DNA from: Paraburkholderia phenazinium
GTDB lineage: Bacteria; Pseudomonadota; Gammaproteobacteria; Burkholderiales; Burkholderiaceae
Direction: 5' to 3'
Assembly: GCF_900142845.1 (NCBI RefSeq)
Contig: NZ_FSRU01000002.1
Coordinates: forward strand, 1,054,001 to 1,118,000
DNA length: 64,000 bases
Part shown: positions 1,239 to 18,023 of the stretch, one piece after another
Numbering within the stretch: the stretch's first letter is position 1
How the letters are laid out: each line of letters begins with the position of its first letter
Notes under the pieces: model-generated
Database searches by the model: none
Told to the model about the DNA's origin: nothing
What the model saw: the letters and a program-made list of their open reading frames with translations, nothing else
Position numbers and translations under genes: made by a program

Positions 1239-4200
1239 TCAATAAACATCGCGCACATAGCGCTTCTCCCGCGCCAGCCCGTTGACATATTCGAGCGCTT
1301 TCTCGTCGCTCATGCCGCCGTGGCCGGCCACCACCGCCTTCAAGGCCGCATCTACGTCTTTCGCCATCCGGCTGGCGTCGCCGCACACATAGAGATGCGC
1401 GCCGGACTCGAGCCACGCCCACAACTCCGCACCGTGTTCGCGCATCCGGTCCTGCACGTAGATCTTCTCGCTCTGGTCGCGCGAGAAGGCCAGGTCGAGC
1501 CGGTTCAGCAGGCCCTTCGCTCGCATCGTGTCCAGCTCGTCGCCGTAATAGAAGTCCGTCGCGGCATGCTGCTCGCCGAAGAACAGCCAGTTGCGGCCCG
1601 TGTCGCCGCGTGCCAGCCGTTCATGCAGGAAGCCGCGGAACGGCGCCACACCGGTGCCCGGTCCCACCATGATCATCGGCGTATCGCCGTCGTGCGGTGG
1701 ACGAAAATGTGCGGACTTTTGCACGTACACCGGGACGCTGACATCGCCTGCGCGATCCGCAAGGAAGGTCGACGACACGCCTTTGCGCTGGCGCCGGCCA
1801 TTGCTGTAGCGAACCGCGGACACGGTCAGATGGACTTCGCCCGGATGAGCCTTCGGACTCGACGCAATCGAATAGAGGCGCGGCTGCAGGCGCTTAAGCA
1901 CGCCGAGCAACTCCGGCGCCGTCAGCGTCACGGGAAACTCGTGCAGCACGTCGGCCAACTGTTGGCCCCACAACCATTTCTTCAGATCCGCCTTGCGGTC
2001 TTCGGCGAGCAAGGCGCCGAGTGCGCCGCTCGAATCGCGAGAGGCGATGAACGTCAGCGCTTCGTGACTGGGACGGGCAATTTCGTAGTGCTTGCCGAGT
2101 GCGTCGGCGAGGCGCATCTCCCCGGCGCCGCTGACATGGACCGCCGTATCCGCCGCGAGCCCGCTCAGGCCGATCAGCTCGTCGACGAGTTCCGGGCAGT
2201 TGCTCGGCCACACGCCCAGTGCATCGCCGACTTCGTACTCAAGGCCCGAGTCGCCGGTCGACAATGAAAAGTACCGCGTGTCCTTCGACGCGCCCTGCTT
2301 GTTAAGCCGCAAATTCGTCACGAGCCGCGAGGCCGCGGGATGCGCCTTGGTAGCCAGCGCGCCGGGCAGGACCGACGGGATCATGCCGTCTGCCGGCACG
2401 TCGTGAAGCGCGGCGTCTTCCTCCTTGATACGCGCGACGATCCGTTCGAGCCACGCGTCGGCAGCAGGTTGAAACTCCGTGTCGCAATCGACACGCGGCA
2501 GCAGACGCACCGCACCCAGCTCCGCAAGACGCGTATCGAGCGCCACGCCGTGTCCGCAAAACGCGTCGTAGTTGCGGTCGCCGAACGCCAGCACCGCGTA
2601 GCGCAGATTATCGAGGCGCGGCGTGTGCTCGGCCTTCAGTGCGCTCCAGAAACTCGCGCCGTTGTCGGGCGGATCGCCGTCGCCGAACGTGCTCGACATC
2701 AATAGCACATATTGCGCCTTGGCCAGTGCGGCGACGTCGTAATCCGCCATACAGGTGGTGCGAATCTCAAAGCCCGACTCCATCAACTGCGTCGCATACC
2801 GTTCCGTCAGCGATTCGATGTTGCCGGTTTGCGAGGCCCACAGCAGCAGCACCTTCGGCCGCGTCCGCGCAATCCGCACGGCGGATGAAGACAGGGCTGC
2901 GTCGGACGCGAGGAGTGGCGCGCCGCCCGGCGACGGTGTACCCGCATCGGCACGGCTGTAGAGACCCGCGAGCATCCCGTCGAACCAGAGCCGCGCCGAC
3001 ACCGGCAGCGGCGCGCTGGCCGGCAGCACCGGCACGCCGTCCGCGAGTCCGCCTGGGCTTGCACGCAAGCCGCCGATAAAGCCGGCGACGTAGGCACGTT
3101 GAGCGTCGTCGAGCCGGGGCGCCGGCATGTCCGGCAAACCGAGCAGGTTGACGAGGGCGTCGATTCGGGACATGTCCCTTTCCTTCGGAGAACTGACATC
3201 GTCCGCGAGCGCTGGCGCTGCGGTTTCGATGGCGGAGTGGATGTGGTCTGAGTCGCTGGAATCGTCCGCGTCGGCGGCCGGTTCAGGTGCGACCCTTGTC
3301 AGCGCCACTGAGCAGAACTTGAGTTCCGGCTGCTGCGAGATCGGGTCGACCGCGTCGTGGGTCACCGCGTTGATGCAGAGGTCGTCGCCGAACACGTCGT
3401 TCCAGTGCATCGGCGCGAAGCACGAACCGGCGCGCACGCGCTCGGTCACCACAGCGGGCAGCACCGCGCGGCCGCGCCGCGAACGCACTTCGACGCGGTC
3501 TTTCGCCGCGATGCCGAGCGCCGCTGCATCCTCCGGGTGAATCTCGATGAACGGCCTGGCGTTCAGTTTGTTCAGCATCGGGATCTTGCCGGTCTTGGTC
3601 ATCGTGTGCCATTGATGCTGCAAGCGGCCCGTGTTCAGTACGATCGGATATTCCGGCACCGGCATTTCGGCCGGCTCCGTATGCGGCCGCGCGAAGAACA
3701 CGGCCCTGCCGCTGGCGGTCGGAAAAACCAGCGCCGGTCGGCTGCCGTCTGGCCGTTCCTTCAACGTCTGACTGATACCGTCGTTCAGATAACGCAGCGG
3801 ATTGCGGTCGCGCATTGCAACCGGAGCGCCTGGCACCACCGACGCCCCCGGCGCGCACGGCCATTGCAGCGGCGTTTCCCGCAGCCGGGCGTAGCTCGCG
3901 CCGCGCAGGTCGTAACCGGTCTTCGGATTCGAAGCACGCGTGATCTCCGCGAAGACTTCCTCGGCCGACGCATACGTGAACGCCTCCGCGAAGCCCATTT
4001 CGCACGCCACCCGCGCGATGATCTGCCAGTCGGGCAGCGCCGCGCCCGGCGGGTCGATGGCCTTTTGCATGAGCGTCAGGTTGCGCTCGGAGTTGATCAT
4101 CACGCCTTCCGCTTCGGCCCACAGCGCGCCCGGTAGAAGCACGTCGGCATAGCGGTTGGTTTCGGTGTCGAGAAAGGCGTCTTGCGCGATCACCAGTTCC

Positions 4201-5465
4201 GCCGTCTGCAGTCCGGCAATCACGTTCTGCCGGTTGGCGACGCTCGCCACCGGATTGGTGCAGATGATCCAGCATGCCTTGATCTCGCCGGTCGCCATGC
4301 GCGAGAACATATCGATCGTGCCCTGCCCGACCGCCGTTCTGAGCGTGCCCGGCGCCACTTGCCACAGCGCCTCGACGAAGACCCGGTCCTCTTCCACCAG
4401 CACCGAACGCTGACCCGGCAGGCCCGGTCCCATGTAGCCCATTTCACGGCCGCCCATCGCGTTCGGCTGGCCCGTCAGCGAAAACGGCCCGCTGCCCGGA
4501 CGGCAGAGCTTGCCCGTCGCAAGATGCAGGTTGCAGATGGCGTTGGTGTTCCAGGTGCCGTGCGTGCTCTGGTTCAGACCCATGGTCCAGCAGCTCATCC
4601 ACTCCGGCGCGGTGCCGATCCATTGCGCGGCGGTACGGATATCCGCCTCGGGGATGCCGGTAATGGCCGCCACCTTCTCCGGCGTGTAGTCGGCGAGGAA
4701 GGCCGGCATGTCGTCCCAGCCTTCCGTGAAGGCGGCGATAAAATCCGGGTTCGTCTGACCGTTCTCGTGCAGCAGATGCAGCAGACCGTTCAGGAGTGCC
4801 AGGTCGGTGCCCGGCTTGATCTGCAGGAACAGGCTCGCCTTGTCCGCCGTCGTATTGCGGCGCGGATCCACCACGATCAGTCTGGCACCCGCCTTGACGC
4901 GCTCCATCATGCGCAGATACAGGATCGGGTGACAGTCGGCCATGTTGGCGCCGATCACGAAGAACAGATCGGCCTGGTCGAAGTCCTGGTACGAGCCCGG
5001 CGGACCGTCGGCGCCCAGCGAGAGCTTGTAGCCGCTGCCGGCGCTCGCCATGCACAGGCGCGAGTTCGATTCGATGTTGTTGGTGCCGACAAAGCCCTTG
5101 GCGAGCTTGTTCACGAGGTACTGCGCCTCGATCGACATCTGCCCCGACACATAGAACGACAGCGCGTCGGGGCCATGCGTGTCGAGCAGCGTACGCAGGC
5201 GCCGGCCGGTATCGGCGATCACCTGATCGAGCGGCAGCGGGATCGGATCGCTCTTGCGGTCGCCGCGTTGAAAAGCGTTTTCCAGACGTCCCGACTTGCG
5301 CAGCGCGACGTGGGCCGACGAGCCCTTGGTGCAGAGCCGGCCGAAGTTGGCGGGGTGTTCCTTGTCGCCGGTAATCTTCACGACGTGGCCGTCCTCGACC
5401 TGCAGGACCATTCCGCAGCCGACGCCGCAGTAAGGGCACACCGTCTTGACGCTAGCGCGGCTCAT
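1239..5465 (-). CDS. nasA: Assimilatory nitrate reductase fused to CysJ-like diflavin reductase
   Basis: Reduces nitrate to nitrite in the cytoplasm using molybdopterin, with electrons probably drawn from NADPH by its own C-terminal reductase. The N-terminus has a 4Fe-4S motif (CPYCGVGC, residues about 10-17, plus a Cys in GRLCTKG near 45), followed by a molybdopterin oxidoreductase and dinucleotide-binding domain to about residue 720. An acidic, Ser/Asp-rich linker leads to a CysJ-like segment (AQRAYVAGFIGGL), a flavodoxin domain (ASQTGNIESL, about 875), an FAD-binding domain (RLYSIASSP) and an NADPH-binding end (GPGTGVAPFRGF, YVCGDASRMA). About 1408 residues, so it is a full fusion rather than a NasA of about 900. 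A GTG at 5468 lies just before the ATG at 5465; an AGGT-type site sits upstream. Third gene after nirB and nirD, 18 bp from the nirD stop. Confidence 0.93.
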   Translation of the reverse strand: MSRASVKTVCPYCGVGCGMVLQVEDGHVVKITGDKEHPANFGRLCTKGSSAHVALRKSGRLENAFQRGDRKSDPIPLPLDQVIADTGRRLRTLLDTHGPDALSFYVSGQMSIEAQYLVNKLAKGFVGTNNIESNSRLCMASAGSGYKLSLGADGPPGSYQDFDQADLFFVIGANMADCHPILYLRMMERVKAGARLIVVDPRRNTTADKASLFLQIKPGTDLALLNGLLHLLHENGQTNPDFIAAFTEGWDDMPAFLADYTPEKVAAITGIPEADIRTAAQWIGTAPEWMSCWTMGLNQSTHGTWNTNAICNLHLATGKLCRPGSGPFSLTGQPNAMGGREMGYMGPGLPGQRSVLVEEDRVFVEALWQVAPGTLRTAVGQGTIDMFSRMATGEIKACWIICTNPVASVANRQNVIAGLQTAELVIAQDAFLDTETNRYADVLLPGALWAEAEGVMINSERNLTLMQKAIDPPGAALPDWQIIARVACEMGFAEAFTYASAEEVFAEITRASNPKTGYDLRGASYARLRETPLQWPCAPGASVVPGAPVAMRDRNPLRYLNDGISQTLKERPDGSRPALVFPTASGRAVFFARPHTEPAEMPVPEYPIVLNTGRLQHQWHTMTKTGKIPMLNKLNARPFIEIHPEDAAALGIAAKDRVEVRSRRGRAVLPAVVTERVRAGSCFAPMHWNDVFGDDLCINAVTHDAVDPISQQPELKFCSVALTRVAPEPAADADDSSDSDHIHSAIETAAPALADDVSSPKERDMSRIDALVNLLGLPDMPAPRLDDAQRAYVAGFIGGLRASPGGLADGVPVLPASAPLPVSARLWFDGMLAGLYSRADAGTPSPGGAPLLASDAALSSSAVRIARTRPKVLLLWASQTGNIESLTERYATQLMESGFEIRTTCMADYDVAALAKAQYVLLMSSTFGDGDPPDNGASFWSALKAEHTPRLDNLRYAVLAFGDRNYDAFCGHGVALDTRLAELGAVRLLPRVDCDTEFQPAADAWLERIVARIKEEDAALHDVPADGMIPSVLPGALATKAHPAASRLVTNLRLNKQGASKDTRYFSLSTGDSGLEYEVGDALGVWPSNCPELVDELIGLSGLAADTAVHVSGAGEMRLADALGKHYEIARPSHEALTFIASRDSSGALGALLAEDRKADLKKWLWGQQLADVLHEFPVTLTAPELLGVLKRLQPRLYSIASSPKAHPGEVHLTVSAVRYSNGRRQRKGVSSTFLADRAGDVSVPVYVQKSAHFRPPHDGDTPMIMVGPGTGVAPFRGFLHERLARGDTGRNWLFFGEQHAATDFYYGDELDTMRAKGLLNRLDLAFSRDQSEKIYVQDRMREHGAELWAWLESGAHLYVCGDASRMAKDVDAALKAVVAGHGGMSDEKALEYVNGLAREKRYVRDVY

Positions 5466-5483
5466 CACGTGCTCGACCTGTGT

Positions 5484-5831
5484 TTATACCGCGACCCAGA
5501 CCTGGCCGTCTTTGACCTGCGCGGCAAACGCGCTAACGGAATGCTCAGGCGCTTCAAGACACTCGCCGGTGCGCAGGTCGAAGTGCTGCTTGTAGATCGG
5601 CGAGGCCACTACGATGCGCTCGCCGAGGTTGCCGATCAAACCGCGCGACAGCACGGCGGCCTGCGAGCAGGGGTCGTAATTGTCGATGGCATACACGCCA
5701 CCCTCGCCTTGCGCGACATTGAACACCGCCACCTGCTTACCCTCGACGAGCGCGCACACACCGGTGTTGGGCACGATGTCGTCGAGCGCGCAGACTGGCA
5801 CCCAGTTAAGCGGATTCAGGTCGTGACTCAT
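5484..5831 (-). CDS. nirD: Nitrite reductase [NAD(P)H] small subunit
   Basis: Small partner of NirB in cytoplasmic nitrite reduction to ammonium. The 115 residues form a Rieske-type fold (VPVCALDDIVPNTGVCALVEG at the start, ASPIYKQHFDLRTGECLE later), but the position of the first Cys-x-His cluster pair reads NYDPCSQAAVLSRG. This is the normal cluster-less state of NirD. It lies 70 bp downstream of nirB and just upstream of nasA, so the three are one transcription unit. Confidence 0.95.
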   Translation of the reverse strand: MSHDLNPLNWVPVCALDDIVPNTGVCALVEGKQVAVFNVAQGEGGVYAIDNYDPCSQAAVLSRGLIGNLGERIVVASPIYKQHFDLRTGECLEAPEHSVSAFAAQVKDGQVWVAV

Positions 5832-5901: not shown

Positions 5902-8496
5902 TCAAACCGTCTCGACGATCACCGGAATCGGGAACGCCTTGGCAGCCTCGCGTTCGGCCGGCGTCGCGGGACGAATCTGGCCGCGCTCCTCGACGAAGGT
6001 CACGGTCTCGTCGACCTTTTCGCTGTTGACGAAGTGGCGGAAGCGCTTGCGGGTCTCGGGGTCGGTCACGGCCTTCTTCCACTCGCACTCGTAGGTGTCG
6101 ACCACGTTGCGCATTTCCGCTTCCAGCTCCGCGGCGAGTCCCAGCTTGTCGTGCACGACTACGTCGATCAGGTAGTCGAGCCCGCCCTCGAGGTTGTCGC
6201 GCCACACGCTGGTGCGCTGCAGACGGTCGGCCGTACGCACATAGAACATCAGGAAGCGGTCGATGTAGCGCACCAGCGTCTCACGGTCCAGATCCGCCGC
6301 GAGCAGTTCGGCGTGACGCGGCTTCATGCCGCCGTTGCCGCACACGTAGAGATTCCAGCCCTTTTCGGTGGCGATGATGCCAACATCCTTGCCTTGCGCT
6401 TCCGCGCATTCGCGGGTGCAGCCCGAGACGCCGAACTTGATCTTGTGCGGCGAGCGCAGGCCTTTGTAGCGGTTTTCGAGGCCGACGGCGAGCCCGACCG
6501 AGTCGCCCACGCCGTAGCGGCACCATGTCGAGCCCACACACGACTTCACGGTGCGCAGCGCCTTGCCGTAGGCGTGGCCCGATTCGAAACCGGCCGCGAT
6601 CAGTTCTTCCCAGACCAGCGGCAACTGGTCGACGCGTGCGCCGAACAGATCGACCCGCTGGCCGCCGGTGATCTTCGTGTAGAGGCCGTACTTCTTCGCC
6701 ACCTGGCCGACGGCGATGAGCCCTTCCGGCGTCACCTCGCCGCCGGGCATGCGCGGCACCACCGAATAGGTGCCGTCGCGCTGGATGTTGGCGAGGTAGT
6801 AATCGTTCGAGTCCTGCAGGCCGGCGTGTTCCTTCTTCAGGACGAACTCGTTCCAGCACGAAGCAAGAATGCTGGCGACGGTGGGCTTGCAGATATCGCA
6901 GCCGAGACCCTGTCCATGTTTTTCGAGCAGCGCGCCAAAGGTCTTGATGCCTTCCACGCGCACAATGTGATGCAGTTCCTGGCGCGAGTACGGGAAGTGT
7001 TCGCAGACGTGATTGTTGACGTCCATGCCCTGCTTCTTCATCTCGGCCTTCATCACCTGGGTGACGAGCGGCACGCAGCCGCCGCACGAGGTGCCGGCGC
7101 AGGTGGCCGTCTTCAGCGCGCCGATGCTGGTCGCGCCCGCGCACACCGCGGCGCAGATGTCGCCCTTGGAGACGTTATTGCACGAGCAGATCTGCGCGGC
7201 CTCCGGCAGCGCGTCGACGCCGAGACCCGGTTTGGCCTTGCCGTCGCTGGACGGCAGGATCAGGAATTCCGGCGCGTCGGGCAGCTCGATGCGGTTCAGC
7301 ATCATCTGCAGCAGCGTGCCGTATTCCGCGGCGTCGCCCACCATCACCGCGCCGAGCAACTGCTTGCCGCACTCTGAGACCACCAGCTTCTTGTAGACCT
7401 GCTTGCGCTCGTCGCTGAACTGGTACGAGCGGCTGCCTGGCGTCTTGCCGTGCGCGTCGCCAATGCTCGCCACGTCCACGCCCATCAGCTTGAGCTTGGT
7501 GCTCATGTCGGCGCCGGCAAAATCCGCCTCGTCGCCGAGCAATTGCTTCGCCGTGATGCGCGCCATCTCGTAGCCCGGCGCGACGAGTCCATACACCATG
7601 CCGTTCCACGCCGCGCATTCGCCGATCGCGTAGATGTCGGGGTCGCTCGTGCGGCAGGTGCCGTCAATCGCAATGCCGCCGCGCGGGCCCAGTTCGAGTC
7701 CGCAGGCACGCGCGATCTCGTCGCGCGGCCGGATGCCCGCGGAAAACACGATCATGTCGGTGTCGAGATGCGTGCCGTCGGCGAACTTCATGCGGTGCGT
7801 GCCCGCTTCGCCGTCGACGATTTCGAGCGTCTGCTTCGCCGTATGCACCTGCACGCCCAGTTCTTCGATCTTGCTGCGCAGGACCCGCCCGCCGCCTTCA
7901 TCGACCTGCACCGCCATCAGGCGCGGCGCAAACTCGACCACGTGCGCCGCCAGTCCCATGTCGTGCAGCGCCTTCGCGCATTCGAGCCCGAGCAGTCCGC
8001 CGCCCACCACCACGCCGGTTTTTGCGCGCGCGCCGCAGGCCTGCATCGCTTCGAGGTCTTCGATGGTGCGGTAGACGAAGCAGTCCTGACGATCGTTGCC
8101 TGCGATCGGCGGCACGAACGGCGACGAGCCGGTGGCCAGCACCAGCTTGTCGTACGACAGCGTCTCGCCGGTCGAGATGCGCACCGTGCGCGCCGCGCGG
8201 TCGACCGACAGCGCCTTCGCATTGAGCTTGAGCAGCACGTTCTCGCGCTCGAAGAAGCCGGGCTTGACGAGCGACAGGTCCTCCGCGGACTTACCGGAAA
8301 AGAATTCGGACAGATGCACGCGGTCGTAAGCGGGACGCGGCTCTTCGCACAACACGGTGATGTGCAGCGCCGACTTCGCCTCGTCCACCAGACATTCGAG
8401 GAGCTTGTGACCCACCATGCCGTGGCCGATCACCACCACGTTCATGACAGGGGCTTCATCCTTGCCCAACCCGGTTTCCAGCTCGATTCGCGACAT
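5902..8496 (-). CDS. nirB: Nitrite reductase [NAD(P)H] large subunit
   Basis: Siroheme enzyme reducing nitrite to ammonium with NAD(P)H. Order of domains: FAD/NAD-binding oxidoreductase (VVVIGHGMVGHKLLE at about 19-33, GGGLLGLECAKALHDMGL), a BFD-like 2Fe-2S domain (ICSCNNVSKGDIC, CAGTSCGGC), a ferredoxin-like half domain, and the siroheme/4Fe-4S site (CVGSTWC near 652 and CTREC near 692). 864 residues from the ATG at 8496. A second ATG at 8445 starts at the conserved MNVVVIGHG and is possible. The frame stays open upstream, but that region is the untranslated leader with a terminator. First gene of nirB-nirD-nasA, expressed from a sigma-54 promoter match through an ANTAR-type attenuator. Confidence 0.95.
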   Translation of the reverse strand: MSRIELETGLGKDEAPVMNVVVIGHGMVGHKLLECLVDEAKSALHITVLCEEPRPAYDRVHLSEFFSGKSAEDLSLVKPGFFERENVLLKLNAKALSVDRAARTVRISTGETLSYDKLVLATGSSPFVPPIAGNDRQDCFVYRTIEDLEAMQACGARAKTGVVVGGGLLGLECAKALHDMGLAAHVVEFAPRLMAVQVDEGGGRVLRSKIEELGVQVHTAKQTLEIVDGEAGTHRMKFADGTHLDTDMIVFSAGIRPRDEIARACGLELGPRGGIAIDGTCRTSDPDIYAIGECAAWNGMVYGLVAPGYEMARITAKQLLGDEADFAGADMSTKLKLMGVDVASIGDAHGKTPGSRSYQFSDERKQVYKKLVVSECGKQLLGAVMVGDAAEYGTLLQMMLNRIELPDAPEFLILPSSDGKAKPGLGVDALPEAAQICSCNNVSKGDICAAVCAGATSIGALKTATCAGTSCGGCVPLVTQVMKAEMKKQGMDVNNHVCEHFPYSRQELHHIVRVEGIKTFGALLEKHGQGLGCDICKPTVASILASCWNEFVLKKEHAGLQDSNDYYLANIQRDGTYSVVPRMPGGEVTPEGLIAVGQVAKKYGLYTKITGGQRVDLFGARVDQLPLVWEELIAAGFESGHAYGKALRTVKSCVGSTWCRYGVGDSVGLAVGLENRYKGLRSPHKIKFGVSGCTRECAEAQGKDVGIIATEKGWNLYVCGNGGMKPRHAELLAADLDRETLVRYIDRFLMFYVRTADRLQRTSVWRDNLEGGLDYLIDVVVHDKLGLAAELEAEMRNVVDTYECEWKKAVTDPETRKRFRHFVNSEKVDETVTFVEERGQIRPATPAEREAAKAFPIPVIVETV

Positions 8497-8510
8497 GATT
8501 TTCGTCCGGC

Positions 8511-8634
8511 AAATAAAAAGGCGTCCCGCGGATTCAATCGTCGAAGCGACTGAATTCGGGGGACGCCGTTGTCCAAAAGCCCGTGATCTATGGAGTGACT
8601 TTTGCTGCATGCTGGCCGGACCATCGTTGATCCG
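8511..8634 (-). promoter_or_regulatory. nirB leader: dual-hexaloop ANTAR-type antiterminator/attenuator
   Basis: Reading the minus strand from the predicted start site: hairpin P1 at 8617-8634 (CGGATCAACGATGGTCCG, six-pair stem with one G-U, loop AACGAT); hairpin P2 at 8561-8574 (GGACAACGGCGTCC, loop AACGGC); then an intrinsic terminator whose arms are 8561-8567 and 8520-8527 (GGCGTCCC pairing with GGGACGCC), followed by a U-rich tail at 8511-8519. P2 and the terminator share bases, so they exclude each other. Both loops have A at position 1 and G at position 4, the known requirement of ANTAR RNA-binding domains (NasR, NasT, EutV). The terminator ends 15 bases before the nirB ATG. Inferred role: nitrate-dependent antitermination. 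Confidence 0.85.
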
Positions 8635-8648
8635 CCGGGCAAACTTAC

Positions 8649-8663
8649 GCAAAGGCCATGCCA
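8649..8663 (-). promoter_or_regulatory. Sigma-54 promoter of nirB
   Basis: Minus strand TGGCATGGCCTTTGC matches the -24/-12 consensus TGGCAYG-N4-TTGC with exact spacing. The predicted start, near 8637, falls three bases before hairpin P1 of the leader, which supports both calls. Expected to need an enhancer-binding protein such as NtrC. Confidence 0.8.
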
Positions 8664-8761
8664 TGCGCGAGAATGCCGTGCTGCGACCGCAGCGGCGGGC
8701 GTCCCGGCTTGTCGCGGTGCATGGCCGCGCGCTGCCTGACGACGCATTTTGATGCGGCCCG

Positions 8762-8797
8762 GCACAACGCTGGTGCGGTGCAGCACTTCATCCGTGC
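8762..8797. promoter_or_regulatory. Two NtrC-like enhancer sites shared by nirB and cobA
   Basis: Two GCAC-N7-GTGC palindromes, at 8762-8776 and 8783-8797, match the NtrC half-site pattern and spacing. Their starts are 21 bp apart, two helical turns, as in paired NtrC enhancers. They lie between the divergent sigma-54 promoters, roughly 125-160 bp upstream of the nirB start and 85-120 bp upstream of the cobA start. Inference from pattern only. Confidence 0.6.
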
Positions 8798-8853
8798 AGG
8801 GTGTTGGGGCGCATGCGACGCGCTGCGCCAGCCAGAGGTACGCGGTAATCATC

Positions 8854-8868
8854 TGGCCTGGATATTGC
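8854..8868 (+). promoter_or_regulatory. Sigma-54 promoter of cobA
   Basis: TGGCCTGGATATTGC keeps the GG and GC of the -24 and -12 elements at exact spacing, with C for A at one consensus position. The predicted start, near 8880, is immediately before the first leader hairpin. Confidence 0.7.
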
Positions 8869-8880
8869 CTTTGATAGAAT

Positions 8881-9012
8881 GCGCGACAACGATGTCGACG
8901 CAACGAATCGCGCGACCCGAGGGCTGCAAGGCCCACGCGTCGCACTCATCAGACAGGCTCAGGACAACGGCGTCCCCTCGTTTAACATGACGAGCGGACG
9001 CCGTTTGCATTT
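8881..9012 (+). promoter_or_regulatory. cobA leader: dual-hexaloop ANTAR-type attenuator
   Basis: P1 at 8881-8901 has loop AACGAT (8888-8893) on a CGAC/GTCG stem extended by GCG/CGC across a bulged A. P2 at 8962-8975 is GGACAACGGCGTCC with loop AACGGC. A terminator-like hairpin pairs 8969-8981 with 8990-9002 (GGCGTCC-CTCGT with ACGAG-GGACGCC, one C-C mismatch) and is followed by GTTTGCATTT. P2 shares bases with its 5' arm. The U tail is weaker than in the other two leaders. The RNA continues about 75 bases to the cobA ATG. Confidence 0.75.
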
Positions 9013-9086
9013 GGCGAAGCGCGAGCCCTGACATTGCAGCCGCGACTGCAACAGCGGCAACGCGGAACAAGGACATCAACATCATC

Positions 9087-9878
9087 ATGGCAACCGGCAA
9101 GGTCACCTTACTCAGCGCGGGCCCGGGCGAGCTCGATCTGCTCACCCTGCGCGCCGCGCGGCTGCTGGCAAGCGCGGACGTCCTGCTGCTCGACGATCTC
9201 GTCAACCCCGAGATCGTGACGCTGGCGCCGCAGGCGCGCGTCATCCGGGTCGGCAAGCGCGGCGGCTGCAAGTCGACCCCGCAGGCATTCATCCAGCGGC
9301 TGACCCTGCGCTACGCACGCGCCGGACGGCACGTGGTGCGGGTGAAAGGCGGCGAGGCCCTGCTGTTCGGCCGCGCCGGCGAAGAGTTGAGCGAGTTGCG
9401 GCGTGCGCAGATTCCGTTCGAGATCGTCAACGGTATTTCATCGGGGTTTGCAGCGGCGGCGGGACTGGGCATTTCGCTCACGCATCGCGATCACTGCCAG
9501 GGCGTGACGTTCGTCACGGCGCATCTGCACGACGGCAGCGAACCGAACTGGGCCGCGCTTGCCGCTACCGGGACGACGCTTGCCGTCTATATGGGCATGA
9601 GCCGCATCGACAGTATCTGCGCAGCGTTGCTCGCGGCGCTGCCCGACGGCACGCCGGCTGCGGTGGTGCAATCCGCCGGCACGTCCGACGAGCGCCGCGT
9701 GCTGGCGACGCTCGCGACGATTGGCGCCGCTGCGCGTGAAGCGGGCCTCGGCAGCCCTGCGGTGATTCTGATTGGCGATGCGATCGGCGAGGCTGCGCTC
9801 AGCGTTGAACAGGCTTCGCCTGCGCCTGTGCCCGCTGCGGCGCCTGCCGGGTCCGATGACGAGCGCCGTTACGCGTAA
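9087..9878 (+). CDS. cobA: Uroporphyrinogen-III C-methyltransferase
   Basis: Makes precorrin-2 from uroporphyrinogen III, the entry to siroheme needed by NirB. 263 residues, the length of a stand-alone SUMT rather than the CysG fusion. Shows the SAM-binding start SAGPGELDLLT (residues 10-20) and the family loop VRVKGGEALLFGRAGEE (84-100); the usual Asp after KGG is Glu here. ATG at 9087. It is convergent with the binding-protein gene at 9887 and shares its upstream control region with nirB, which explains its role: siroheme supply when nitrate is assimilated. Confidence 0.92.
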   Translation: MATGKVTLLSAGPGELDLLTLRAARLLASADVLLLDDLVNPEIVTLAPQARVIRVGKRGGCKSTPQAFIQRLTLRYARAGRHVVRVKGGEALLFGRAGEELSELRRAQIPFEIVNGISSGFAAAAGLGISLTHRDHCQGVTFVTAHLHDGSEPNWAALAATGTTLAVYMGMSRIDSICAALLAALPDGTPAAVVQSAGTSDERRVLATLATIGAAAREAGLGSPAVILIGDAIGEAALSVEQASPAPVPAAAPAGSDDERRYA

Positions 9879-15615: not shown

Positions 15616-17016
15616 TCACACTCCACTATCCGCCGTCACACCGGCCGCTGAAATCGGGCTCGCAACAACGACACTCTCGCCCGGCAGCGCCCATTTGAGC
15701 CAGCGCGCACGATGCAGCGCGACGAGCGCAAACGCGAGCGCCGACAGCACGCCGAACGTCGCGAAGCCCATCTGATAACTGCCGGTGCTTTCCTTGGCCA
15801 TGCCCATGATCACCGGCAGATAGAAGCCGCCGATGCCGCCGGCCGCGCCGATGATCCCCGACATCAGACCGGTCTTGCCCTTCCAGCGCTGCGGCACGAG
15901 TTGGAAGGTGGCGCCGTTGCCGAGTCCGAAGCATAGATAAGTGGCGATTAGCAGCGCGATGCCGGCCGGCAGCGGCGGCATCCACGCGGCGAACGCGAAG
16001 TCGCACAGCGAGATGCCGGCAAGCAGCAGCACCAGCGCCCGCACGCCCGAGATACGATCGGCGATCAGGCCGCCGACCGGACGCACCAGCGCGCCGGTGA
16101 ACGCGAGCAGCGACATGAACAGCCCCGCTTCGAGCTTGGGCAACTGATACAGCGACACCAGCAGGGTCGTCACATACGACGACATGCCGACGAAACCGCC
16201 GAACGTGATGCTGTAGACCAGCATCACGACCCACGTATCGCTCTCCGCCAGCACGCTGCGGTAGTGCTTCGGCAACACCGCGATGGCGAGCAGCGCACCC
16301 AGCACGGGCAAGAGCAGCACGCCCGTTTTGCCGCCGCCGAAGACACCCGCATGCACGGCCAGCACCAGCACGATCAAGCCGACGAGCGTGATGCAGAAGC
16401 TGCGCAAGGCGCGCGGCGCGCTGCCCGATTTGGGCCCGAGGTCCTTCGCCCAGAAAAACAGTGCGACCGCCGCGAGCGCCAGCAACGGCAGCGCCGCTCC
16501 TGCAGCCTTGGCCCAGCCGAACTGGTCGGCGAGACTCGGAAACAGGAAACCGTCCAGCACCGCGCCAATGTTGCCGGCGGCGGCGAGACCCAGCACGAGC
16601 CCTTGCACCTTCGGCGGATAGTTGCTGCCGGCCATCGGCAGGGCCACGGCAAAACTCGCGCCGCCTACGCCGAGGAACACGCCCAGCACCAGCAGCATCA
16701 CATAGGACGGCGGCGTCGGCGATAACAGCAGGACAACTGACGGTATAGCCGAGAGAGCCACGCCAAGCAAAGCAATGCGGCGGCCGTCGTAGGCCTGGTA
16801 CAGATTGCCGAGCGTCACCCGCAGAATGGCCGCGCCCAGCACCGGGACCGCGACGAGGAAGCCCAGTTCGGCGGGCGACATCGCGATGTCCTTGTGGATG
16901 AACGGCGCCAGCGGGCCGAACATCACCCATACGGTAAAGCCGGTATCGAAGTACAGAAAGCAGGCTAGCAAGGCGCGCCAGTTGCCGCTTGCCAGCGATT
17001 TGAATAGATGTTTCAT
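15616..17016 (-). CDS. narK: Nitrate/nitrite MFS transporter
   Basis: Twelve-helix major facilitator of the nitrate/nitrite porter family. Evidence: FDTGFTVWVMFGPLAPFI in helix 1, LGVGGASFAVALPMAGSNYPPKVQG, and the second nitrate-signature region GLGNGATFQLVPQRW plus GIIGAAGGIGGFYLPVIMG. 466 residues from ATG 17016 with GAGAGA upstream. Second gene after the P-box sensor-like protein (22 bp gap), so it is under the same sigma-54/attenuator control. Role: nitrate uptake for the NasA-NirBD pathway. Confidence 0.9.
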   Translation of the reverse strand: MKHLFKSLASGNWRALLACFLYFDTGFTVWVMFGPLAPFIHKDIAMSPAELGFLVAVPVLGAAILRVTLGNLYQAYDGRRIALLGVALSAIPSVVLLLSPTPPSYVMLLVLGVFLGVGGASFAVALPMAGSNYPPKVQGLVLGLAAAGNIGAVLDGFLFPSLADQFGWAKAAGAALPLLALAAVALFFWAKDLGPKSGSAPRALRSFCITLVGLIVLVLAVHAGVFGGGKTGVLLLPVLGALLAIAVLPKHYRSVLAESDTWVVMLVYSITFGGFVGMSSYVTTLLVSLYQLPKLEAGLFMSLLAFTGALVRPVGGLIADRISGVRALVLLLAGISLCDFAFAAWMPPLPAGIALLIATYLCFGLGNGATFQLVPQRWKGKTGLMSGIIGAAGGIGGFYLPVIMGMAKESTGSYQMGFATFGVLSALAFALVALHRARWLKWALPGESVVVASPISAAGVTADSGV

Positions 17017-17038
17017 GGTCTCTCTCGCAGGGTGAAGG

Positions 17039-17764
17039 CTATTGAAGGGCGCGGTCGGCACGGGCATGCCAACCTTGAGACGGCACGGCGCGGCGCGCTG
17101 AGGTCCCGCTCGCGCCGCTCGTATCGACGACGCTTTGAATCAGCTCGTCCATCTCTTTGATGATGTCGGCGAGCACGGTCGTGATCACCGCGAATTCGCG
17201 GCCGAATTTCCCCGCGCGCGCGGCCGAGATGCGCGCATTGAGCGCGACGATATTGGCCTGCATCGAAATGTTGCCAAGCCGCTCGGCGATATCCACCTGG
17301 CGTTTGGTGGCGGCGGCTTCGACGCCGCGCATCTCGTGCTGATAGGCGAGCGTGATTTCCTGCAGCAATTCGAGCAGCGGAGTCGCCTGGGCCACCAGTG
17401 CATCGACCTGGGGCTGCCGGTCGTCACCGCCCGCGGCAATGCTCAAGGCGGCGCGTTCAGCCTGCGCGACGAACTGCCGGATGCGCTCGTCGGCCCGGCC
17501 TTTGCCGAAGTAGACCTCGCGCAGCGCCTCGGAAAACACGCCGGGCAAGCGCTCGTTGCCGTGCACGAGCTCGGCATGCGCTTGCGCGAAACTGGCGAGG
17601 CAGCTCTTCAGCACCGCCAGCGCGGCGGCGTCGCCCAGCGCGGCGAGCAAGGCATGCAGCACGATGCGTTGCGAGAGCATGCGCTGCCGGCCCGACAGGT
17701 TGATAAGCTCGCCGATGACCGGTCCAGAGACGGCGTCGAGGCTTGAATTGGTCTGCTGTTTCAT
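17039..17764 (-). CDS. Soluble PilJ/P-box nitrate-sensor-like protein with truncated MCP tip
   Basis: 241 residues with no signal peptide or membrane helix. Residues 18-33 (GELINLSGRQRMLSQR) match the P-box found in NarX/NarQ and PilJ-type nitrate sensors. The middle is a helical PilJ-like domain with a second-helix half. Residues 164-215 carry a chemoreceptor hairpin tip (NIVALNARISAARAGKFGREFAVI), but the long MCP stalk and methylation helices are missing. It is first gene of an operon with narK and has the same leader type as nirB. A nitrate-responsive regulator is inferred; whether it binds nitrate or a NasT-like partner is unknown. ATG 17764 chosen over an upstream open frame that runs through the terminator. 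Confidence 0.8.
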   Translation of the reverse strand: MKQQTNSSLDAVSGPVIGELINLSGRQRMLSQRIVLHALLAALGDAAALAVLKSCLASFAQAHAELVHGNERLPGVFSEALREVYFGKGRADERIRQFVAQAERAALSIAAGGDDRQPQVDALVAQATPLLELLQEITLAYQHEMRGVEAAATKRQVDIAERLGNISMQANIVALNARISAARAGKFGREFAVITTVLADIIKEMDELIQSVVDTSGASGTSARRAVPSQGWHARADRALQ

Positions 17765-17854: not shown

Positions 17855-17995
17855 AAAAAAAAAGCGTCCCGAGTGCCCAGCACGCGCGCCGATTGCTCGG
17901 TGCACTTCTGGATACCCGGGACGCCGTTGTCCCTGCGGGCCGCCTCAAACGGGCGACCCCTCAAGTGTCAATACGATGAGGCCGCCGTTGACCTC
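17855..17995 (-). promoter_or_regulatory. pilJ-narK leader: dual-hexaloop ANTAR-type attenuator
   Basis: Minus strand: P1 at 17978-17995 (GAGGTCAACGGCGGCCTC, loop AACGGC), P2 at 17918-17933 (GGGACAACGGCGTCCC, loop AACGGC), then a terminator pairing 17918-17924 with 17864-17870 (GCGTCCC/GGGACGC) and a run of nine T at 17855-17863. P2 and the terminator's 5' arm overlap. P1 begins about two bases after the predicted transcription start. Confidence 0.85.
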
Positions 17996-18008
17996 GGTGC
18001 GTTGCAAT

Positions 18009-18023
18009 GCAATAGACATGCCA
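18009..18023 (-). promoter_or_regulatory. Sigma-54 promoter of pilJ-narK
   Basis: Minus strand TGGCATGTCTATTGC fits TGGCAYG-N4-TTGC exactly. The nirB promoter shares the preceding CGCATGGCATG context, suggesting common origin or strong shared selection. Confidence 0.8.

Follow-up and report, generated by a model that had tools for sequence, protein, structure and literature searches.

The leaders of eut, nasF and amiE carry dual-hexaloop ANTAR RNAs, in which a pair of hairpins with A1/G4 loops, the second of which (P2) overlaps a terminator, stands before nitrogen genes (Ramesh et al. 2012, PMC3369931). The published search definition allows a variable linker between the two hairpins, and Burkholderia is among the genera with predicted matches (PMC3369931). 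The natural linker for EutV is 5-12 nt; linkers of 3 or 14 nt drastically cut induction (PMC3369931), and lengthening by 20 nt abolished antitermination in vitro (PMC8934654). From the EutV structure it has been argued that a single dimer is unable to contact the two loops of an RNA simultaneously, and a successive transfer from the recruitment hairpin to the antitermination hairpin was proposed (PMC8934654). Only dual hairpins are described in the available text of PMC3369931, PMC8934654, PMC8164766, PMC7496416 and PMC3369936. In Klebsiella, antitermination in the nasF leader is controlled by nitrate through P1 and P2 hexaloops and NasR, which combines a NIT sensor and an ANTAR domain in a single protein (PMC3369936, PMC7496416). 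Control of the nas leader by NasT/NasS has been published for Paracoccus denitrificans, with Azotobacter and Pseudomonas also named for this pair; the ANTAR regulator and its separate nitrate sensor serve nitrate assimilation targets that have an additional NtrC layer (PMC3795266, PMC5424462).

We analysed a 64-kb stretch of the Paraburkholderia phenazinium genome (hereafter the window) and found there the same A1/G4 hairpin pair, the same overlap between P2 and a terminator and nitrogen genes downstream. As in the NasS/NasT systems, an ANTAR regulator stands beside a separate putative nitrate sensor, whereas sensor and regulator are one protein in NasR. Unlike in Paracoccus, the regulator pair is not encoded near its presumed targets but on a different contig, and three leaders are present, including those of siroheme synthesis and of a PilJ/NarK-like operon. 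The linkers of 42-64 nt, against 5-12 nt in the described elements, and the hairpin that stands in the middle of some of them have no equivalent in that comparison. The long spacing, the third copy and a three-hexaloop form in relatives go beyond the known mechanism.

Three paired-hexaloop leaders in the window

The earlier note had claimed complete dual-hexaloop attenuators in the divergent leaders of nirB (minus strand) and cobA (plus strand). All the sequence features that it names are there: each leader combines two hexaloop hairpins, P1 and P2, with a terminator (Table 1), so that the observation of paired-hexaloop leaders with a terminator before both genes is confirmed. The loops read AACGAT in P1 and then AACGGC in P2, with A1 and G4, in both leaders. 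P2 overlaps the terminator as had been stated: the nirB 5' arm GGCGTCC is common to P2 and terminator, and the cobA terminator uses the 3' arm of P2. The word complete leaves out of account the length of the linker, outside the working range of EutV, and the middle hairpin, which in many relatives is a third hexaloop.

Table 1. Predicted leader elements and annotated genes in the window
Feature	Position	Strand	Sequence or evidence
Sigma-54-type promoter of nirB (putative)	8649..8663	-	TGGCATGGCCTTTGC, GG-N10-GC; pattern match
nirB P1 hexaloop hairpin	8617..8634	-	CGGATC-AACGAT-GGTCCG; folding; covariation in relatives
nirB P1-P2 linker, 42 nt	8575..8616	-	weak hairpin only, AAAAGUC/GGGCUUUU
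nirB P2 hexaloop hairpin, putative antiterminator	8561..8574	-	GGAC-AACGGC-GTCC
nirB terminator	8515..8567	-	5' arm GGCGTCC shared with P2, tail TTTTT; stem -30.0 kcal/mol
nirB, nitrite reductase large subunit	5902..8496	-	NCBIfam TIGR02374, 1149 bits
nirD	5484..5831	-	NCBIfam TIGR02378, 118.6 bits
Nitrate reductase-like protein fused to CysJ-like flavodoxin/FAD/NAD reductase	1239..5468	-	Pfam; NCBIfam mostly below cut-off
Two NtrC-like sites	8762-8776, 8783-8797	.	GCAC-N7-GTGC; between the divergent nirB/cobA promoters
Sigma-54-type promoter of cobA (putative)	8854..8868	+	TGGCCTGGATATTGC; like element in relatives
cobA P1 hexaloop hairpin	8881..8901	+	GCGCGAC-AACGAT-GTCG(A)CGC, one bulged A
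cobA middle hairpin	8912..8943	+	without A1/G4 hexaloop, within 64-nt linker; folding
cobA P2 hexaloop hairpin	8962..8975	+	GGAC-AACGGC-GTCC
cobA terminator	8966..9012	+	shares P2's 3' arm, poor U-tract CCGTTTGCATTT; stem -27.4 kcal/mol
cobA, uroporphyrinogen-III C-methyltransferase (siroheme supply)	9087..9878	+	NCBIfam TIGR01469, 246 bits, cut-off 185
Sigma-54-type promoter of third leader (putative)	18009..18023	-	TGGCATGTCTATTGC; pattern match
Third leader P1	17978..17995	-	GAGGTC-AACGGC-GGCCTC
Third leader middle hairpin	17937..17959	-	GGGTCGCC/GGCGGCCC, loop not A1/G4, in 44-nt linker
Third leader P2	17918..17933	-	GGGAC-AACGGC-GTCCC
Third leader terminator	17855..17924	-	-42.2 kcal/mol, nine U
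Operon behind third leader	15616..17764	-	PilJ-domain protein and NarK-like MFS transporter
PilJ-domain protein	17039-17764 (predicted start)	-	Pfam PF13675, 39.2 bits
NarK-like MFS transporter	15616-17067	-	TIGR00886, 269 bits, below 311.7 cut-off

A script scan for two A1/G4 hexaloop hairpins with a terminator arm complementary to P2 found three places in the window (nirB, cobA and 17928 on the minus strand) and none in any of 20 dinucleotide-shuffled windows. Each of the three leaders has two A1/G4 hexaloop hairpins with stems of at least 3 bp and a P2 that overlaps the 5' arm of a terminator, the U-tract being poor in cobA. The third leader (17855-18023, minus) was absent from the earlier note's list; PilJ domains, one of which is encoded behind it, bind nitrate in some chemoreceptors. 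The start of nirB was taken at 8496, with the open frame extending further upstream, and the nitrate reductase-like/CysJ-like fusion is a single protein of 1409 aa.

The nirB and cobA leaders fold better than all of their 200 dinucleotide shuffles each (z -3.6 and -4.7), and their terminator stems compare with -4.0 kcal/mol for P2. ViennaRNA draws a tetraloop in both P1 hairpins because A1 can pair with U6 in these loops; such pairing is impossible in AACGGC, the most frequent loop in relatives. A simple terminator scan of 8400-9150 returned no sites, presumably because the long stems hold mismatches that it disallows, and no Rfam family reached its gathering score over the whole window. A search of the genome with the model R1 returned the nirB leader (E 3e-16), the third leader (1e-9) and cobA (0.03) among 17 matches up to E 10. 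The best 10 of the 17 (L115-L124) were checked, the remaining seven lying at E 3.7 and up, and none of the seven non-leader loci among them, including C1:2091602 at E 0.007, has P2 and a terminator.

A TGGC-N7-TTGC site lies upstream of P1 in each of the three leaders, and transcription from these sites would start only a few bases away from P1. We name them after what we take to be the sigma-54 consensus. The start is predicted near 8637 for nirB, so P1 would stand at the very 5' end of that RNA, and near 8880 for cobA. The pattern is mildly enriched in the window (8 matches against 3.6 expected; 4 of 100 shuffles reach 8). In 85 of the 102 leaders from the window's family and in 34 of 51 other leaders the looser TGG-N10-GC precedes the first hairpin by 5-35 nt, against 11-12% of shuffles with a match anywhere in the upstream region. 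This placement points away from transcription starts downstream of P1/P2. The two GCAC-N7-GTGC sites between the divergent promoters are likewise named after the NtrC consensus as we presume it to be; the pattern is at chance frequency in the window (4 matches, 3.4 expected), and the tandem placing alone is suggestive.

In named relatives the longest T run of the terminator is 3 in 14 of 28 cobA leaders, compared with 5-6 in 38 of 45 nirB-side leaders, and the cobA U-tracts of these 28 are poorer overall. This suggests that cobA termination may be leaky, which would give a basal supply of siroheme.

Conservation in relatives and a single ANTAR protein

The divergent leaders were followed in 51 named relatives found through cobA. 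Both are present in 27, the nirB-side leader only in 18, the cobA leader only in 1 and neither in 5, so that 45 of 51 have the nirB-side leader, as assigned by position rather than by the gene behind it. The 51 come from a set of 80 loci, without L061-L084, L041 and four loci that belong to other families. L041, a Pandoraea that we take to be a member of the window's family, has neither leader. A stricter terminator rule applied to 56 loci gave 20 with both, 24 with nirB only and 12 with neither, several cobA leaders being missed by it.

The earlier note had pointed to the different P1 stems of nirB and cobA as covariation-like. The difference is real, but it is not itself covariation since the two are separate leaders, and comparison of orthologues is the proper test. 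In an alignment of 32 leaders (A1; 32 of the 39 listed at that spacing), five of six P1 pairs change on both sides while the loops are kept; the first of the refuting outcomes set in the earlier note, a lack of kept loops or compensating stem changes in relatives, thus did not occur. The whole structure has a covariation score of 0.251 against 0.134 in shuffles, none of 500 being as high, and 98.8% of P1 and P2 cells are paired; shuffles reach 93.1%, and sliding the structure along the alignment leaves no more than 51.3%. P2 is nearly invariant in A1 (A-U/G-U at one pair) and has no covariation support of its own; a 3' arm that has to fit two structures would be expected to vary this little. 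Of the 102 leaders from the window's family 87 have a P1, which turns up in 4.4% of shuffles.

The genome (8.5 Mb, three contigs) has one ANTAR match (63.7 bits, cut-off 27.3), on contig C1, the window being on C2. The match lies in a REC-ANTAR protein, and an NMT1_2 protein comes next (PF00072 36.4, PF03861 61.6, PF13379 298 bits), which is the arrangement of NasT and NasS. Neither protein receives these names from an NCBIfam model at its cut-off, and we call them NasT-like and NasS-like from domain order and adjacency. Relatives of the regulator in the PDB are 1s8n (Rv1626), a 'putative antiterminator' (E 1.8e-19), 6wsh, a 'response regulator' (1.7e-16) that is presumably EutV, and 4akk, a 'nitrate regulatory protein' (4.3e-7).

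By a hand tally of 150 family genomes, 93 have both a P2 14-mer and an ANTAR match, 1 (G048) has P2 only, 10 have ANTAR only and 46 have neither, a co-occurrence that is inflated by relatedness and genome size because most genomes below 3 Mb lack both. A lone P2 match is weak evidence, since a reversed control pattern of P2 matches in 45 of the 150 genomes (counted by eye). Two genomes of the window's family, G075 and G037, have 3 and 8 ANTAR matches.

Linker length and the three-hexaloop leaders of relatives

The linkers between P1 and P2 measure 42 nt in nirB, 64 nt in cobA (counted from the core P1 stem) and 44 nt in the third leader, outside the 5-12 nt within which eut works, a functional limit of EutV. 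They contradict the EutV spacing rule, which counts against our preferred explanation, namely that a NasT-like protein acts through both hexaloops. Linker lengths vary with the amount of stem counted: of 42 nirB-side family leaders including that of the window, 30 have 40-43 nt, 10 have 52-59 nt and 2 have 28-30 nt, and cobA leaders span 19 to 94 nt. Loop-to-loop distances gave no support for a periodicity in multiples of about 11 nt, as judged by inspection. The leaders L278 and L287 of the family genus g16 have an 84-nt linker with several hairpins inside, and the gene behind the leader in the genome of L278 is nirB (L293).

One way to reconcile this spacing with the preferred explanation, of which it is a sub-reading whose odds are not exclusive of it, is that the middle hairpin folds P1 and P2 close enough together for one NasT dimer or oligomer, so that the effective linker is short. 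We regard this as somewhat doubtful, though a serious possibility. Plain middle hairpins occur in cobA and the third leader as well as in the genus groups g11, where a long one occupies the middle position (L264-L270), and g24, and 63 of 82 family linkers fold more stably than their own shuffles (-12.5 against -10.2 kcal/mol). Averaged over single linkers, z reaches only modest values (-0.88 and -0.77); in the window, folding gives -21.2 kcal/mol (z -1.2) for cobA, -16.7 (z -1.6) for the third leader and -3.8 (z +1.25) for nirB, the linker of which is not obviously shortened by folding because its middle hairpin is weak. Against a shortening by folding, the outer unpaired length of the 82 linkers is not below that of shuffles (13.8 against 10.9 nt), and the plain hairpins show little covariation, with double changes in 1 of the 22 pairs predicted for alignment A4 and in 2 of the 20 for A5, of which one belongs to P1. 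The cobA middle hairpin likewise shows weak covariation in a comparison with four relatives.

Short- and long-spaced leaders occur together in five g24 genomes (G043, G077, G096, G024, G113) with one ANTAR match each, the upstream loop lying 22 nt or 55 nt before the P2 loop; one protein therefore presumably serves both. In G043 the short leader precedes an NMT1_2 gene adjoining the ANTAR gene and the long one precedes a NarK-like gene. For the G113 leaders L285 and L286 the script found no terminator, and the sixth g24 genome, G129, has a short-spaced leader only among the two loci fetched.

In 29 of 51 leaders from outside the window's family, 26 times together with P1, the middle position is taken by a further A1/G4 hexaloop hairpin, the third, whose stem counts at least 5 and which lies 16-30 nt before the P2 loop; the rate in shuffles is 0.2%. 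Leaders from outside the family come mostly from R1 and, later, from a second model, R2; the former is the one trained on P1-P2 loop-to-loop distances of 52-61, with a middle hexaloop in 5 of its 32 training sequences. At E <=0.001 R2, with three stems, has matches in 50 of the 369 class genomes and in 36 of the 299 phylum genomes, two-hairpin leaders included; it was trained on mostly triple leaders, and the proportions of triple, short and long leaders are not population estimates. By title, the named strains that carry this hairpin are Rugamonas, Duganella, Janthinobacterium, Pseudoduganella and Oxalobacteraceae bacterium AB_14, the four genera being, as we take it, Oxalobacteraceae. Ten proteins encoded downstream of non-family leaders comprise five MFS, four NMT1_2 and one without assignment; one genome has a NarK-like MFS gene (295 bits, below cut-off) and then nirB. 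Upstream of an MFS gene, the leader L155 (G560) strings together four A1/G4 hexaloop hairpins, three at -109, -57 and -21 and the fourth being P2.

The middle hexaloop covaries, with both partners changed in four of eight pairs among 15 related leaders, 14 of them distinct (A2), and in three of four inner pairs among 26 diverse leaders (A3). RNAalifold, given alignment A3 alone, placed three hairpins at the same positions with double changes in 10 of 15 pairs. A2 consists of ten named and five unnamed leaders, all but L068 already known to have the middle hexaloop. A3 holds 26 of 42 leaders, from a set from which nine leaders without distal P1 had been dropped; left out were close relatives of its rows (L061, L065, L067, L076, L160) and short duals or leaders with an unclear middle hairpin (L137, L138, L140, L147, L149, L150, L152, L153, L171, L172, L176), which tilts the covariation results of A3 towards the middle hairpin. 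Because leaders entered A2 and A3 largely on the strength of this feature, its frequency rests on the 51-leader sample and its covariation on A2 and A3.

In the family sample, which is centred on nirB and cobA leaders, none of 102 leaders has a middle hexaloop. An absence from the whole family was not upheld, since five triple leaders of the family genus g3 (L250, L252, L255, L258, L260) were found among 40 further family loci. Of two g3 leaders followed up, L291 precedes an NMT1_2 gene and the frames tested behind L290 matched no family. L009, L024 and L029, which pass looser limits, were not counted as family triples because of poor loops. At the middle position the nirB-side leaders L017, L020, L022 and L059 (three titled Caballeronia, one Burkholderia) have GCCC-ATGAC-GGGC and L065, L076 and L077 have ACCC-AATGAC-GGGT, consistent with the loss of one loop base. 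A five-base ATGAT/ATGAC loop replaces the middle hexaloop in L144, L017, L020, L022 and L059, which belong to separate lineages. Many relatives have a third A1/G4 hexaloop in the middle, and the window's leaders are therefore probably a reduced version of a three-hexaloop element, the loss rather than the gain being our reading of its direction.

The same spacing would also fit a P1 that is a relic, with NasT acting in the window through P2 alone or with another partner in the linker, and in other lineages also through the hairpin adjoining P2; among class-level relatives a hexaloop 16-34 nt before P2 is indeed the sole partner found in 17 of 76 non-family leaders, a set that includes matches of the triple-trained model. 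This is improbable: P1 recurs in the family far above the shuffles, covaries with A1 and G4 kept and sits just behind the promoter-type site, whereas a relic would decay. That these are ordinary terminators resembling hexaloop elements by chance is very improbable and already contradicted at the level of sequence. P2-like 14-mers do occur alone in genomes, as the reversed control showed, but three leaders stand against 20 shuffled windows without even one, alongside conservation at the nirB position and covariation.

A probable sigma-54 and NasT-like switch among known leaders

The most probable explanation by a wide measure is a sigma-54 start, termination by default and antitermination by the NasT-like protein through the P1 and P2 hexaloops, and the ANTAR attenuator interpretation of the earlier note is supported. 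The nirBD-nitrate reductase operon, cobA and the PilJ/NarK operon would each start from a sigma-54 promoter under control by nitrogen limitation, and transcription would stop by default at the intrinsic terminator of the leader. Nitrate or nitrite would cause the NasS-like sensor to release the NasT-like REC-ANTAR protein, which would bind the A1/G4 hexaloops of P1 and P2. With P2 held, the terminator could not close and polymerase would read through. P1, the first RNA out of the polymerase, would likely be the loading site and P2 the antiterminator. The combination of sigma-54 promoters with NasT antitermination is known for nas operons and is the best reading of these leaders.

Two Rfam families, narK RNA (RF03032) and Pseudomonas sRNA P11 (RF00625), look like the same class of leader, although not so labelled in their Rfam descriptions. 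Their consensus holds GGCAC...UUGC or GGCAC...CUGC, a CAACG hairpin and CGACAAAGACGUCG or GGACAAAGGCGUCC; that of P11 also holds a GGACGCC terminator arm, and narK RNA is modelled with one hairpin and P2 unpaired. We read both as ANTAR leaders because the printed consensus has a promoter-like stretch, the CAACG hairpin and P2, and not because of score. In the window RF03032 gives 17.6 bits at nirB (E 0.67) and 14.6 and 14.2 bits for parts of cobA, below its gathering score of 43.2, and RF00625 gives 14.6 and 13.6 bits (E 0.8 and 1.4), below 70; the matches at 8520-8674 (minus) and 8842-9002 (plus) have E 0.67-4.1, and unrelated families score alike. In relatives the values are 32.0 bits (E 0.0095) for RF03032 on the best triple leader and 27.4 bits (E 0.014) for RF00625 on L127. 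P11 may simply be a terminated leader.

The open text of PMC3369931 holds no counterpart that we found to the third A1/G4 hexaloop of many relatives, and we found no description of a triple-hexaloop ANTAR element in the open-licence literature, which does not establish its absence from print. We put forward, tentatively and as a conjecture that we do not expect to hold in full, that proteobacterial nas leaders are a three-step relay, in which NasT would load on a distal hexaloop at the RNA's 5' end and move to a middle and then to an antiterminator hexaloop; that the lineage of the window lost the middle one, so that NasT bridges 42-64 nt; that the linker rule of EutV is not valid for NasT; and that narK RNA and P11 belong to the same class.

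The leaders described here are probably RNA on/off switches, predicted to be held open by a protein released by nitrate. The natural three-hexaloop, short-spaced and long-spaced leaders are ready constructs for testing how ANTAR proteins use two hexaloops.
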